Made by a program: the position numbers and the translations under genes. DNA of 10,587 bases from a bacterium CG2_30_54_10 (GTDB lineage: Bacteria; Muiribacteriota; Ozemobacteria; Ozemobacterales; Ozemobacteraceae). The notes under the pieces were generated by a model. The model was not told the origin of the DNA, searched no databases, and saw only the letters and a list, made by a program, of their open reading frames with translations. The DNA lies in the NCBI GenBank assembly GCA_001872985.1, contig MNYA01000388.1, forward strand, positions 1 through 10,587. The letters are read 5' to 3'. Of the stretch, positions 118 through 10,587 are shown in pieces (the stretch's first letter is position 1; each line of letters opens with the position of its first letter).

Positions 118-128
118 ACGATCGGTTG
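118..128 (+). repeat. left arm of 11-bp direct duplication flanking element copy A
   Basis: ACGATCGGTTG here is repeated exactly at 390-400. The two copies sit directly outside the two ends of the dispersed element (129-390), as expected for a target-site duplication made on insertion. One base at the right copy overlaps the element end, so the true duplication is 10 or 11 bp. Confidence 0.6.
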
Positions 129-267
129 TCTCATCTCAATAATTGGGGGAAATCACGAAAGTAGATCGAAGGGCGCAAGGCACCCGGCCGCGGGGAGTGC
201 AACACGCGAATTCACTTTGCATGTCAAGAGGGGATGCATACCCATGCACGCTAAATCAGGGATAGGT

Positions 268-332
268 TGTCATTCCGAACGAATATGAGAGATCTGATGA
301 ATACCAGATTTCCCCCTTTGGGCGAAATGACA
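268..332. repeat. nested 65-bp palindromic repeat (TGTCATT...AATGACA)
   Basis: TGTCATT at 268-274 is the exact reverse complement of AATGACA at 326-332. Inside, AGATCTG at 290-296 pairs with CAGATTT at 305-311 with one G-T wobble, giving a long interrupted hairpin. From memory, repeats of the form TGTCATTCCGAGCGAA...AATGACA are common between genes in several bacterial groups, and this one fits that type. It lies inside copy A of the larger element, in the stretch that copy B lacks. Confidence 0.6.
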
Positions 333-359
333 AAAGATGGATTTTAATTAAGCGCATTC

Positions 360-382
360 GGGGCGCGTGCCCCCCTCTTTTT
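360..382 (+). terminator. short GC hairpin followed by T-run at the right end of copy A
   Basis: GGGGC (360-364), loop GCGT, GCCCC (369-373), then CCTC and TTTTT (378-382). The form is that of a weak intrinsic terminator. The corresponding hairpin in copy B (GGGGGC 2187-2192, loop GCGT, GCCTCC 2197-2202) has one wobble and a poorer T-run. It may insulate the next gene from upstream transcription, or it may only be a structural part of the repeat. Confidence 0.3.
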
Positions 383-389
383 GAAAATT

Positions 390-400
390 ACGATCGGTTG
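390..400 (+). repeat. right arm of 11-bp direct duplication flanking element copy A
   Basis: Exact second copy of ACGATCGGTTG (first at 118-128), directly after the right end of copy A. No comparable duplication of 10 bp flanks copy B. Confidence 0.6.
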
Positions 401-466: not shown

Positions 467-2038
467 TTGGAAATACAAATACAAATTCATAAAGAATCGA
501 GTTGTTCTCCGTCCAACGGTGCGGGGAGGCTTCTCGCGGCAGGTGTTTTCATCGGGTTCTTTCTACTTTTCCAATTAGGGGCAAGGCAGAATTTCCTTCA
601 GGATCCCGGAACATTTTTCCATACCCGGGTCGGGCAACTTATTCTCGAAGAAGGGCAGCTTCCGAGGCAGGATCGGTTTACCTTCCCCTACCAGGGACAA
701 CGATGGATTGCCCAACAATGGCTCGGCGAAGTGATCCTGGCGGCATTGTACAAATTCGGTGGATTTGACACACAGGTATTCATAGCCATCTTCCTTCTTG
801 CCTGCCTCTATGCCTGGCTTGCCCTGAGAATTTACCGTGCGGGGATGACATTCCTTTTGACCCTGCTCATGATTACTTTGGTGGTGGCCGCATCGAGCCA
901 CCATTTTCTGGTGCGCCCCCTTCTTGCCAGCATTTTATTTCAAGCCCTTGTTTCGGCCCTTCTTTTGGAAGTCGAGCGCTGTCGGGCGGGGCTGGCTTGT
1001 CTCTGGTTTCTTCCGATTGCGATCGCGATTTGGGCAAACGTCCACGGCGCCGTATTGGGCGGGGTGATGACGATCGGACTGACCGGGATCGGCTGGGGCT
1101 TTCTTTTTCTGACCGGAAGACCGGGCCCGCTGTCTTCCTGGAGAGGCGTCCGAACCGCGGCGATTCCCATGGCTGCATGCATTCCAGCGCTTCTTGCAAC
1201 ACCATACGGATTGGATATGTTCGATGCCTGGGGCGAAATCGTCAACTCGCCGCTCATCGGGCAGTTGATCGTCGAGCACCGGCCGATGCTTACGTTGCCT
1301 CAGGGCTGGGCGGTTCTTCCCCTCGCGGTTTCATTCACCCTTCTGTCGATTGGTGCGCTCAGAGAGCGCCTGGTTGTAGGCTGGGCGTTTCCGTTGGTCT
1401 GGCTTTTGCTCGCATTTACGAAGATCCGACACGCGCCGATCTTCGCGGTTACTGCAGCGGTCGCCCTTCCCGACCTGTTCCAGGTTTCCCGATTCCGGAA
1501 ATGGCTGGATGAAAGATGGCAGATCGAGACTTTCAGGATCCGCGCGAATGTCATGAAGGGAAGTTTGAACGGCGGGTTCGGTCTCACCGCAGCTTTGGCG
1601 ATGCTCCTTTTGCTCATTGGGCTCGTCTTTCAGGGTTCAGACGTCAACCTGCCGATTCTGGGAACCGGATGGGTTTCTCCTCCTGCCGATCGATGGCCCG
1701 AGGCCGTCCGGCCCGTGATTTTCTCATTTTCTGAACGGGCACCGGACGGAACCCCAATTTTCAATGAATTGTTTTTCGGCGGATACCTCGCATTTCAAGC
1801 CCCGCGCCTTAGAACCTTCATTGATGACCGCTGCGAACTGGCCAAAGACCGGGGATTGTCGGATTATGTTCGGGGAATGGCCGACCCTGAGATCATTTCG
1901 GGATGGCAGAAAAAGTATTGCTTCAAGGCAGCCCTCACCAAACCAGGTTCTCCATTCGACGTCTGGTTTTCCAAAGCCGTTGGTTGGGAAATGATCGCAT
2001 CCTCGACGGCCGGAAACTGGTTCGAATGGCGACCATGA
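467..2038 (+). CDS. polytopic membrane protein, GT-C glycosyltransferase-like
   Basis: 523 residues with about ten to eleven hydrophobic segments (roughly 22-38, 102-122, 126-143, 150-168, 176-194, 197-216, 231-246, 280-298, 302-318, 322-336, 370-389) and a C-terminal soluble part (390-523), probably periplasmic. It resembles a recurring group of uncharacterised membrane proteins related to mannosyl- and arabinosyl-transferase-like GT-C proteins. Family-like marks are DPGTFFHTRVG (47-57), PRQDRFTFP (66-74), WIAQQWLGEV (80-89), WANVHG (189-194), TPYG (245-248), RHAPIFA (321-327), and in the tail FNELFFGGYL (432-441) followed by FIDDR (451-455). The start is a TTG with GAAGAG at 453-458 in front; there is no in-frame ATG near the 5' end, and a TAA at 404-406 limits upstream extension. 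Substrate unknown; a sugar-transfer role is inferred from overall similarity only. Copies A and B of the dispersed repeat flank the gene. Confidence 0.8.
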   Translation: MEIQIQIHKESSCSPSNGAGRLLAAGVFIGFFLLFQLGARQNFLQDPGTFFHTRVGQLILEEGQLPRQDRFTFPYQGQRWIAQQWLGEVILAALYKFGGFDTQVFIAIFLLACLYAWLALRIYRAGMTFLLTLLMITLVVAASSHHFLVRPLLASILFQALVSALLLEVERCRAGLACLWFLPIAIAIWANVHGAVLGGVMTIGLTGIGWGFLFLTGRPGPLSSWRGVRTAAIPMAACIPALLATPYGLDMFDAWGEIVNSPLIGQLIVEHRPMLTLPQGWAVLPLAVSFTLLSIGALRERLVVGWAFPLVWLLLAFTKIRHAPIFAVTAAVALPDLFQVSRFRKWLDERWQIETFRIRANVMKGSLNGGFGLTAALAMLLLLIGLVFQGSDVNLPILGTGWVSPPADRWPEAVRPVIFSFSERAPDGTPIFNELFFGGYLAFQAPRLRTFIDDRCELAKDRGLSDYVRGMADPEIISGWQKKYCFKAALTKPGSPFDVWFSKAVGWEMIASSTAGNWFEWRP

Positions 2039-2100
2039 CCGCGCTGCCGTGCAAGTATCATCTCAATAACCGAGGGAAATCATGAAAGCAGACCTGAAGG

Positions 2101-2145
2101 CGCAAGGCGCCCGACCGCAAGGCGCCCGACCGCAAGGCGCCCGAC
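2101..2145 (+). repeat. three perfect 15-bp tandem repeats
   Basis: CGCAAGGCGCCCGAC occurs three times in a row with no mismatch. Copy A has one diverged unit at the same place, so the array probably grew by slippage after the copies separated. The unit contains the palindrome GGCGCC. Confidence 0.9.
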
Positions 2146-2157
2146 TGCGGGGAGCGA

Positions 2158-2182
2158 GACACGCGAATTCACTTCGCGTGTC
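2158..2182. repeat. perfect 10-bp-stem hairpin inside copy B
   Basis: GACACGCGAA and TTCGCGTGTC are exact reverse complements around a five-base loop TTCAC. In copy A (195-220) the same segment is present but several stem pairs are lost, so the structure has not been kept there. Confidence 0.8.
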
Positions 2183-2228
2183 GAAAGGGGGCGCGTGCCT
2201 CCTCTATTTGAGAAGTTACTAACGGAAC

Positions 2229-3377
2229 ATGACTGGCCAACAATCCTCAATTGATGCCGTAAAGAACAGACTGGCAATGCGGGCGGGCTTCGCTTTTATT
2301 GGGGGGATTGTTCTATCGATTTTTCTGGGAGCCGACAAATTCCAGTGGGATGCGCAAACCTATTGGTGGGCAGGACGTGCATGGTGGCTGGGCCAGCAAG
2401 CGTACGATCCCGAAGTTCTTTCAAAATTGGCCGGCAAGAACATTCTGCCGTTTGTTTATCCACCGACCATTTTGCCTTTTCTGGGTGTTATCTCCATTCT
2501 TCCGGAAGCCTTTTTCCTGGCGCTTTTTCCGCTATCCAAGGTTGTTGTATTTTATCTGCTACTTCGCTGTTGGAACGAGATACTCCGAACGGATCGGGCC
2601 AGGCTTTTGTGGTTTTCGCTTCTTGGCTTCCAGGGCGCATTGTTCATCGATTTCCGGGCGGGGAATGTCAGTGTATTCGAGGCGCTCCTTATCTGGATTG
2701 GCTTGAAGGCATGGATCGATGAGCGGCCTTTGGCTTTCGCGGTTCCGATTGTTCTGGTTGGCCAGGTGAAGATTCTTCCCCTTGCATTCCTGGGTTTGTT
2801 CCTATGGGATAAAAGGCACGGATGGTCGAGAATTCTTCTCGCCGTGGGAGTTCTTGGCGCCGCGAACGGCCTGATGATCTGGCTTTGGCCTGACCGATGG
2901 AGATTGTTCGGACATGTTTTGACCTTGATCGAGGAATCTGGCGCTACCAATCCATGCCAGCTCGAGTTCTGGAAATCCCTCATCGGCGCCTCGGCAGGAT
3001 TTTGGTTGTATTGCGGGTTCTCACTCGTGGTAGCCCGGCTGACCTGGCAGATGGGGAATTCGGCTGCGAAGACAGGAACCGAGGGCCGACGCCGTGCGGT
3101 TTTTCTGGCTTGCCTGACCTACGCACTTCTGGCGCCGAGGTTCAAGGACTATTCTTTCCTGCTTTTGATCCCTTCCGCGATCGGCTCATTCGACCTCAAT
3201 TTTCGATCGAAATTTCTGGAATGGTCATTCCTTGCATTCGGTCTGGTTCCGCTTACACCTCTTCCCAAAATCATTCCCGGTTTCACGGGTTACATTCCTG
3301 TCGCCTGGGTGGTCTTTTTCTGGCTTTTCACGATACTTTCCGAGCGTAACTATCAAAAATCACTGAATTCTTTGTAG
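2229..3377 (+). CDS. GT87/DUF2029-like membrane glycosyltransferase
   Basis: 382 residues, hydrophobic through most of the length (about nine to ten membrane segments, the first at about 18-36). The pattern is that of the GT87/DUF2029 group of polyprenyl-phosphate-sugar-dependent mannosyltransferase-like proteins: WDAQTYWWAGRAWWLG (40-55, with D41 in the place of the expected acidic residue), YD (59-60), FVYPP (75-79), GNVSVFEALL (145-154), GQVKILPLAFLGLFLW (178-193) and a late LAPRFKDYSFLLLIPS (301-316). Such enzymes move a sugar from a lipid carrier on the outer face of the inner membrane. The acceptor is unknown; envelope glycan or a surface protein such as a pilin are possibilities. The start ATG has no good ribosome-binding site; an alternative in-frame ATG lies at 2277. 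Copy B ends 10 bases upstream of the ATG, so any promoter for this gene would lie in or across the repeat. Confidence 0.8.
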   Translation: MTGQQSSIDAVKNRLAMRAGFAFIGGIVLSIFLGADKFQWDAQTYWWAGRAWWLGQQAYDPEVLSKLAGKNILPFVYPPTILPFLGVISILPEAFFLALFPLSKVVVFYLLLRCWNEILRTDRARLLWFSLLGFQGALFIDFRAGNVSVFEALLIWIGLKAWIDERPLAFAVPIVLVGQVKILPLAFLGLFLWDKRHGWSRILLAVGVLGAANGLMIWLWPDRWRLFGHVLTLIEESGATNPCQLEFWKSLIGASAGFWLYCGFSLVVARLTWQMGNSAAKTGTEGRRRAVFLACLTYALLAPRFKDYSFLLLIPSAIGSFDLNFRSKFLEWSFLAFGLVPLTPLPKIIPGFTGYIPVAWVVFFWLFTILSERNYQKSLNSL

Positions 3378-3407
3378 GTGCAAGCAGGCGGTTGGTAAGA
3401 ACTTCAC

Positions 3408-3436
3408 TTGTTTGGAAATTGCCACTGTGCTAAGAT
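3408..3436 (+). promoter_or_regulatory. possible sigma-70-type promoter
   Basis: TTGTTT (3408-3413), a 17-base spacer and TAAGAT (3431-3436). Both boxes are only partial matches to the consensus, and the predicted start of transcription falls almost on the ribosome-binding site of the next gene, leaving little leader. Confidence 0.22.
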
Positions 3437-3456
3437 GTGCCCTAGGAGTCCGCAAC

Positions 3457-3730: not shown

Positions 3731-4783
3731 ATGAAACTTTCTCCGAATACCTTTGCTCAGCTCCGGGACTTTCTATCCCATGAGTATGGCCTCTTTTTCG
3801 AGGCCTCAAAAGTAACATTCCTCGAGAACCGCATCCTGCCCTTCATAGAAAAACTCAATTGCATCGATATGAACCAGTTCATCGCGAAGATCAAAGAATT
3901 CCCCGACCAGCGCAGAGAGCTGTTAGATGCCTTGACCACTAACGAAACCTGGTTTTTCAGGCACCCACGGCACTTTGACATACTCCGGGAAGAGATTCTT
4001 TTACCATTGATTCGAGCAAGGCAGAAGGCTGGGCCACGGGAAATCTCGATTTGGTCCGCCGGATCATCCATAGGCGCGGAAACGTTCTCGATCGCCATCA
4101 CTGTTCGAGAGGCGCTCCTCGACCTGCCTGGCTGGGAAGCCCGAATAATCGGAAGTGACATCTCTGCCGAGGCAATTCAAAGGGCAAACAAGGCGGTCTT
4201 TTCCTCTAAAGAATTGAATCTTCTTTCTCCCATCCTAATGAACAGATATTTTTTCCCTCAGTCCGCCGAAGGCTTCAAGGTAAAACCCGAGATCCGTTCC
4301 ATGGTTGCCTTTGAACGGATGAATCTCCTTGACCCCTGGCCAAATCGTGTCTTCGATGTGATCTTCTGCCGGAATACGATGATCTATTTTCACGAGGGAA
4401 CAAAGGCCACGCTGACTGAGCGGTTTTTCCAGGCACTGGTTCCAGGCGGGACGTTTTTCACAAGCGCGACCGAAACCCTCCATTGGAAAGGGGAAAATGC
4501 CTTCGAGAAGATTTTCATCCGCGGGGAATACGTCTACCGCAAGCGCACGCATGGGAGGCCCTTCGTTCTTTACAGGTTCCGAACTCCGGCCGACCTCTTG
4601 CGGGCCTTGAACATTCTTGTTAAGCACAACTTCGAGTATCAGTTGTTGAACATTCCCCAAGAGTCCCCAAATCAGCCTCGGAAGGCCATCTTTATCGCCA
4701 AGGCTTTCCAGAAAAAGGTCGAGGAAGTCTTCGCCAACGCTGCCCTGAAAGCATCCAGACGGGAAGAAGTCATCAGGCAGTAA
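3731..4783 (+). CDS. cheR: CheR-family SAM-dependent methyltransferase, divergent
   Basis: 350 residues. CheR proteins methylate glutamates of chemoreceptors using S-adenosylmethionine. The CheR order is complete: an N-terminal helical part (1-65), NETWFFR (71-77), the SAM-binding segment WSAGSSIGAETFSIA (108-122), the acidic loop GSDIS (141-145), FDVIFCRNTMIYF (208-220) and GGTFFTSATETL (239-250). The SAM segment departs from the usual SAGCSTGEEPYSIA: Cys to Ser at 112, Thr to Ile at 114, the first Glu to Ala at 116, Pro to Thr at 118 and Tyr to Phe at 119, while Glu117 is kept. About 80 residues (270-350) extend beyond the usual end, finishing in a charged helix. No receptor, CheB or CheA gene is in the window, so the target may not be a chemoreceptor. 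The ribosome-binding site is weak (AGG about 12 bases upstream). Genes for Nudix and TPR proteins follow. Confidence 0.85.
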   Translation: MKLSPNTFAQLRDFLSHEYGLFFEASKVTFLENRILPFIEKLNCIDMNQFIAKIKEFPDQRRELLDALTTNETWFFRHPRHFDILREEILLPLIRARQKAGPREISIWSAGSSIGAETFSIAITVREALLDLPGWEARIIGSDISAEAIQRANKAVFSSKELNLLSPILMNRYFFPQSAEGFKVKPEIRSMVAFERMNLLDPWPNRVFDVIFCRNTMIYFHEGTKATLTERFFQALVPGGTFFTSATETLHWKGENAFEKIFIRGEYVYRKRTHGRPFVLYRFRTPADLLRALNILVKHNFEYQLLNIPQESPNQPRKAIFIAKAFQKKVEEVFANAALKASRREEVIRQ

Positions 4784-4843
4784 CTTCTCAATAAAGGGCT
4801 GTTCCTCTTCCGCACCTCTGCCGATAACAGACTCGGGGGCTTT

Positions 4844-10325: not shown

Positions 10326-10558
10326 ATTCGATTCAATGTAAGTGTTTAGCCTTCTGAAGCGAATACCTCGAAACCTTGCTCCAACAGACACTTTGGAAAA
10401 TTTTCACGATGGCAATCGATGACTGAGCAAAACATTGATCTGATCGACGTTTGAGGCAGTTTAACTTCAGACCGCTAAACTCATTGGGCGCATTCCAAAA
10501 AAGAGGTAGCCGGTCGAAAGAACAGCAGTGGCAGCGCATCAACGAAGAAGGTGTGTCG
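10326..10558. other. apparently non-coding stretch
   Basis: No convincing gene. The longest open frame is 78 codons on the minus strand (10333-10569). It gives a protein rich in Cys, Ser and basic residues without domain-like pattern or a good ribosome-binding site, and it runs into the repeat at the window end. I see no tRNA, hairpin array or promoter here. Confidence 0.5.
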
Positions 10559-10587
10559 TATCTACTCAATAATTCGGGGTAATTTTG
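10559..10587 (+). mobile_element. probable left end of a third copy of the dispersed repeat (cut by window edge)
   Basis: TATCTACTCAATAATTCGGG here resembles the left ends of copy B (TATCATCTCAATAACCGAGG) and copy A (TCTCATCTCAATAATTGGGG): shared CTCAATAA at the same offset, then a G-run and AAT. Only 29 bases are visible, so the call depends on sequence beyond the window. Confidence 0.4.

Follow-up and report, generated by a model that had tools for sequence, protein, structure and literature searches.

The 264-bp element designated copy A, at positions 128 to 391 on the plus strand of the 10,587-bp stretch analyzed here (the window), very probably belongs to a high-copy MITE family with IS66-type ends and was inserted by an IS66-type transposase acting in trans. 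The window corresponds to contig C452 of the host genome (G000), a 2.83-Mb draft in 511 contigs that is 67% complete. Copy A belongs to the long subtype and is delimited by the family ends and by alignment with the loci L023, L024, and L218 and with copy B, a homologous element in the same window. The original prediction had placed its boundaries at 129 and 390, one base off on each side, but had correctly recognized the flanking duplication itself: a check of the sequence located the 11-bp exact repeat ACGATCGGTTG at positions 118 to 128 and 390 to 400, bracketing the element. The left end of copy A reads GTCTCATCTCAATAAT, and the right end, TCTTTTTGAAAATTAC, is decayed. As had been proposed for a MITE-like element without a transposase, no ORF of at least 80 aa is present within copy A or within copy B (2055 to 2219). 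The target duplication proper is the 8-bp sequence GATCGGTT, found on the plus strand to the left (120 to 127) and to the right (392 to 399) of the element, with its length set by the family profile described below. The match between the flanks reads 11 bp in this copy because the AC at 118 to 119 is identical to the last two bases of the element (390 to 391) and the G at 400 to its first base (128), so that the 8-bp duplication is extended by bases coinciding with the element's own termini.

The family ends are about 20 bp long and consist of GTAWCWNCTCAAWAA, usually followed by a run of G; one end usually reads GTAACTT, and the opposite end often reads GTATC. The copies fetched from the host genome share ends of the form GTATCATCTCAATAA... 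and GTAACTTCTCAA(A/T)AA.... The imperfect inverted ends originally ascribed to copy A are borne out by the family as a whole, whose copies carry GTAWCWNCTCAAWAA on either side; in copy A, the right-hand version is decayed. An exact search with this motif recovered 442 matches in the host genome versus none in a reversed control. Matches were also obtained in G006 (90, with 0 in the reversed control), G007 (47, with 1), G003 (26, with 1), G013 (14, with 0), and G001 (6, with 0), and the remaining 33 of the 39 genomes of the phylum have between 0 and 3 each. A scan of the genome_contigs collection with an exact 23-base pattern gave no match. Of 27 elements in 21 sequences, 25 of them selected for flanks matching at 6 or more of 8 positions, 23 lie outside predicted ORFs of at least 110 aa; the ORFs that span the other 4 may be spurious.

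The length of the target duplication was read from 57 pairs of ends in the host genome, a set that takes in artefactual pairings of neighboring or nested ends and includes copy B; copy A dropped out, its right end having decayed too far for detection by the scan. When the last p bases to the left of each element were compared with the first p bases to its right, mean identity was 0.63 at p = 8 and 0.22 to 0.31 at p = 4 to 7 and 9 to 13. At 8 bp, 15 pairs match at 8/8 positions, 9 at 7/8, 4 at 6/8, and 29 at 5/8 or fewer, and the 198 random flank pairings used as a control reached a maximum of 6/8, in three cases. Duplications recur among the genome-wide copies, as anticipated in the original prediction, but at 8 bp instead of the 10 to 11 bp claimed there. 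A transposon that generates a 10- to 11-bp duplication and is mobilized by a transposase from outside the IS66 family is very improbable: the 11-bp flanking match that speaks for it is that of copy A alone, where the three extra bases coincide with the element's own termini, and the profile over the 57 pairs has its only peak at 8 bp, with none at 9 to 13 bp. Perfect 8-bp duplications were found, too, at 5 of 10 loci in G007 and 3 of 10 in G006, these loci having been chosen by their ends. The fragmentation of the draft into 511 contigs, several of which end inside the repeat, would fit a tandem duplication of local origin or a misassembly at a repeat, but we give this reading next to no credence: the 8-bp pattern recurs at numerous loci and in two other genomes, and the duplicated sequence differs from one locus to the next. 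An empty site is also available: at L217, a 157-bp element with the duplication GTAAAAAT is nested in another repeat copy, and removal of this element together with one duplication leaves a sequence that occurs uninterrupted at L070, a few differences appearing farther along.

The most likely mobilizer is a transposase of the IS66 family. The sole IS66 match in the host genome covers 188 aa from the C-terminal part of a transposase (PF03050, 44.5 bits), and the NCBIfam IS66 model scores this fragment at 79.1 against a cutoff of 180. The remnant is enclosed in a stretch of 1,030 bp whose ends, ATAACTTCTCATTAACTCGGGGTT and GTAACTTCTCAATAACTCGGGGTT, agree with each other at 22 of 24 bases; the flanks of the stretch agree at only 5/8 positions. 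A 122-bp copy of the family (L213) has 26 of 27 bases in common with an end of the same stretch. No complete IS66 element with the family ends was found in G007 or in the 67% complete assembly of the host, which has just the one fragment. Relatives of the remnant transposase in named genomes of many phyla comprise 144 confirmed loci, the best 80 of which were retained, and the element ends were examined in 45 of these 80. Nine of the 45 (L134, L145, L147, L148, L149, L154, L164, L181, and L193) are complete elements spanning 1.7 to 3.0 kb, with similar ends that have GTAAC on both sides and perfect 8-bp duplications. Their main ORFs encode 496 to 548 aa, and domain scans of five of the nine each gave a match to the C-terminal half of the IS66 DDE domain. 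Twenty of the 45 examined loci, and 35 of the best 80, contain the exact 15-mer GTAACTTCTCAATAA. The full-length IS with the same ends envisaged in the original prediction exists in other organisms as an IS66-type element but is represented in the host by a fragment only. Within the phylum, L101 and L117 of G003 are likewise comparable to the MITE family in having perfect 8-bp duplications, here around an IS66 transposase, and ends beginning with GTAA, as one end of the MITE family usually does. Their ends, GTAAGCGCTCAATAAACC and GTAAAGATTCAG, diverge from those of the MITE family after the first bases, with one L101 end agreeing with the MITE end at 13 of 16 bases when counted by eye. Among 18 further IS66 loci of relatives (L109 to L126), only L117 has both ends clearly recognizable together with a perfect 8-bp duplication, L125 has a single GTAAGCGCTCAATAAACC end, and none has the ends of the MITE family on both sides.

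Two further observations concern genes near such ends. In L134 (2260 to 3117) and L149 (2039 to 2920), a gene encoding a DruA domain (PF14236), which is familiar from Druantia defense, lies beside the IS66-type transposase within the same ends and duplications. Separately, pieces of a Transposase_29 gene (PF21804) are present at L104 of G006 (1216 to 3455), with a solo family end some 0.2 kb away; this gene was rejected as the mobilizer because no second end was found.

Weighing against mobilization by an IS66-type transposase are the 29 of 57 end pairs and copy B, which are without a clear duplication, and the IS66 loci of relatives, which mostly lack the family ends. The 5/8 flanks and below-cutoff NCBIfam score of the remnant, and the failure to find a complete IS66 element with the family ends in the host or G007, likewise count against it. 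Taking together the recurrent 8-bp duplications, the defined ends, the one empty site, and the IS family with the same ends, the proposed insertion by transposition is upheld, and we infer that an IS66-type transposase acted in trans and that this mobilizer has been lost from the host genome or is unassembled in the draft. In such a scenario, a DDE transposase of the IS66 type, provided in trans, would recognize the family ends, and staggered cuts of 8 bp between genes would allow the insertion of copy A, which would leave the duplication of GATCGGTT.

The window contains further pieces of the family. Copy B, at 2055 to 2219 on the plus strand, is a 165-bp core-type element recognized by alignment and by its family ends, which lies between two ORFs on the same strand and has no target duplication, its flanks agreeing at 3/8 positions. 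Positions 2101 to 2145 of this copy hold three head-to-tail units of the 15-bp sequence CGCAAGGCGCCCGAC. A solo family end, GTAACTTCTCAATAAAGGG, was identified from its sequence at 4780 to 4798 (plus strand), with no partner seen nearby; its TAA supplies the stop codon of a CheR-like ORF at 3731 to 4783. The left end of a further copy, found by exact pattern match at 10558 to 10587 (plus strand), is truncated by the end of the contig. A stretch resembling CAGTGGCAGCGCATCAACGA was noticed by eye before a family end, both at about 10515 to 10557 of the window and in L070 upstream of the element at 1501, and is possibly another dispersed repeat. An Rfam scan of the window at gathering thresholds gave no match, and one of four loci scanned at E values up to 1 gave a single weak match far under its cutoff.

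The interiors enclosed by the family ends are diverse. Among 35 distinct copies, selected for flank matches of at least 6/8, lengths of 77, 101 to 102, 112, 122, 134 to 136 (16 copies), 156 to 160 (8 copies), and 263 to 311 bp were observed, and at least five different interiors, unrelated yet with the same ends, could be told apart by eye. Copy A has, on the plus strand at 267 to 333, an imperfect palindrome, TTGTCATT...AATGACAA, which was delineated by alignment and folding and is missing in copy B. An interior resembling it was noted by eye in the 156- to 160-bp copies, and a similar stretch is present in L023 and L024. The fold energy of this palindrome is indistinguishable from that of shuffled sequences (z of -0.21), and the strand of copy A, folded in two pieces, does no better than shuffles (z of 0.84 and -0.21); copy B and three other copies fold better (z of -2.5 to -6.3). 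A function as a portable terminator was considered but is not supported: copy A has one terminator-like site (360 to 373), the region from 1 to 2400 has 6 such sites against 3.3 (standard deviation, 1.9) in shuffles, and of 11 elements with a labeled hairpin end, the 7 with unambiguous neighbors are oriented 3 with and 4 against the genes.

The interior seen most often is a three-palindrome core, a unit of about 78 bp. In an RNAalifold analysis of 67 of the 75 extracted cores (the other 8 were excluded on account of their length or start), the middle hairpin was recovered and the two outer palindromes were not recovered as separate hairpins; the description as three palindromes is therefore one read from the sequence. 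Both sides of the middle hairpin change between genomes in these 67 cores, a pattern that can arise in palindromic DNA without selection on RNA. With up to 2 mismatches allowed, a family end lies within 90 bases of the core in 34 of 36 cases in the host genome, where many core loci were found by a query that included the ends; in all 10 cases in G007, where 8 of the 10 loci had been selected through their ends and L065 and L077 are the same place; and in none of 36 cases in G006, where something end-like appears beside 18 of the 36 when 3 mismatches are allowed. As the core is free of ends in G006 and enclosed by them in the host, core and ends are separable. At L106 and L107 of G006, the core forms tandem arrays with spacings of 135 bp and 77 bp, without IS66 ends.

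Such arrangements recall the REP/REPIN repeats, which are palindromic, lack a target duplication, and occur in genomes with a Y1 transposase. The palindromic interior, the bare and tandemly arrayed core in G006, and the single Y1_Tnp match in each of G006 and G007 would be accommodated if copy A were a hairpin repeat of this kind that owed its dispersal to a Y1 (RAYT-type) transposase or to recombination, with an accidental flanking repeat. Although such a spread may apply to the bare core of G006, it is very unlikely for copy A: unlike REP/REPIN, the core in the host is bounded by IS66-type ends, 8-bp duplications recur in many of the end-bearing copies, and its assembly, at 67% completeness, has no Y1_Tnp (PF01797) match. 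Within the preferred IS66-based explanation, one possibility, which we advance tentatively and on balance hesitate to endorse, is that ends and interior are separate modules, with IS66-type ends having repeatedly enclosed and spread palindromic repeats that were already present in this bacterial family. Given its occurrence free in G006 and inside IS66 ends in the host and G007, the core, which has compensatory changes in its middle hairpin and no Rfam match, may perhaps be a structured functional unit, of RNA or DNA, dispersed by transposition.

Several parallels are offered by known elements. Passages of PMC12898284 describe ISDge4 of Deinococcus geothermalis, an IS66-family element of the single-ORF ISBst12 group with the ends GTGACTACTCAGCA and GTAACTGCTCAGCA, which resembles the present family in its ends beginning GTAACT.CTCA and its 8-bp direct repeat; unlike ISDge4, the MITE family has no transposase gene and measures 77 to about 311 bp. 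For two IS66 elements of Paracoccus, a table row in PMC3281130 gives the value 8, seemingly the duplication length. The bacterial MITEs treated in a review (PMC10969869), such as MITEAba12 and ERIC, are alike in being short, ORF-free, intergenic, and high in copy number, with inverted ends and a target duplication, whereas the copy A family has IS66-type ends around several unrelated palindromic interiors. The term IS66 is absent from the main text of that review, and the literature searched, together with this term search of one review, yielded no report of IS66-derived MITEs. In our reading, the copy A family is a new family of IS66-derived MITEs; its kind is familiar, and its mix-and-match interior is unusual. 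Its ends number in the hundreds in a draft of 2.8 Mb, and its separable core provides a natural test case for the acquisition of MITE interiors: since bare and enclosed cores are both found in related genomes, one can establish which events came first.
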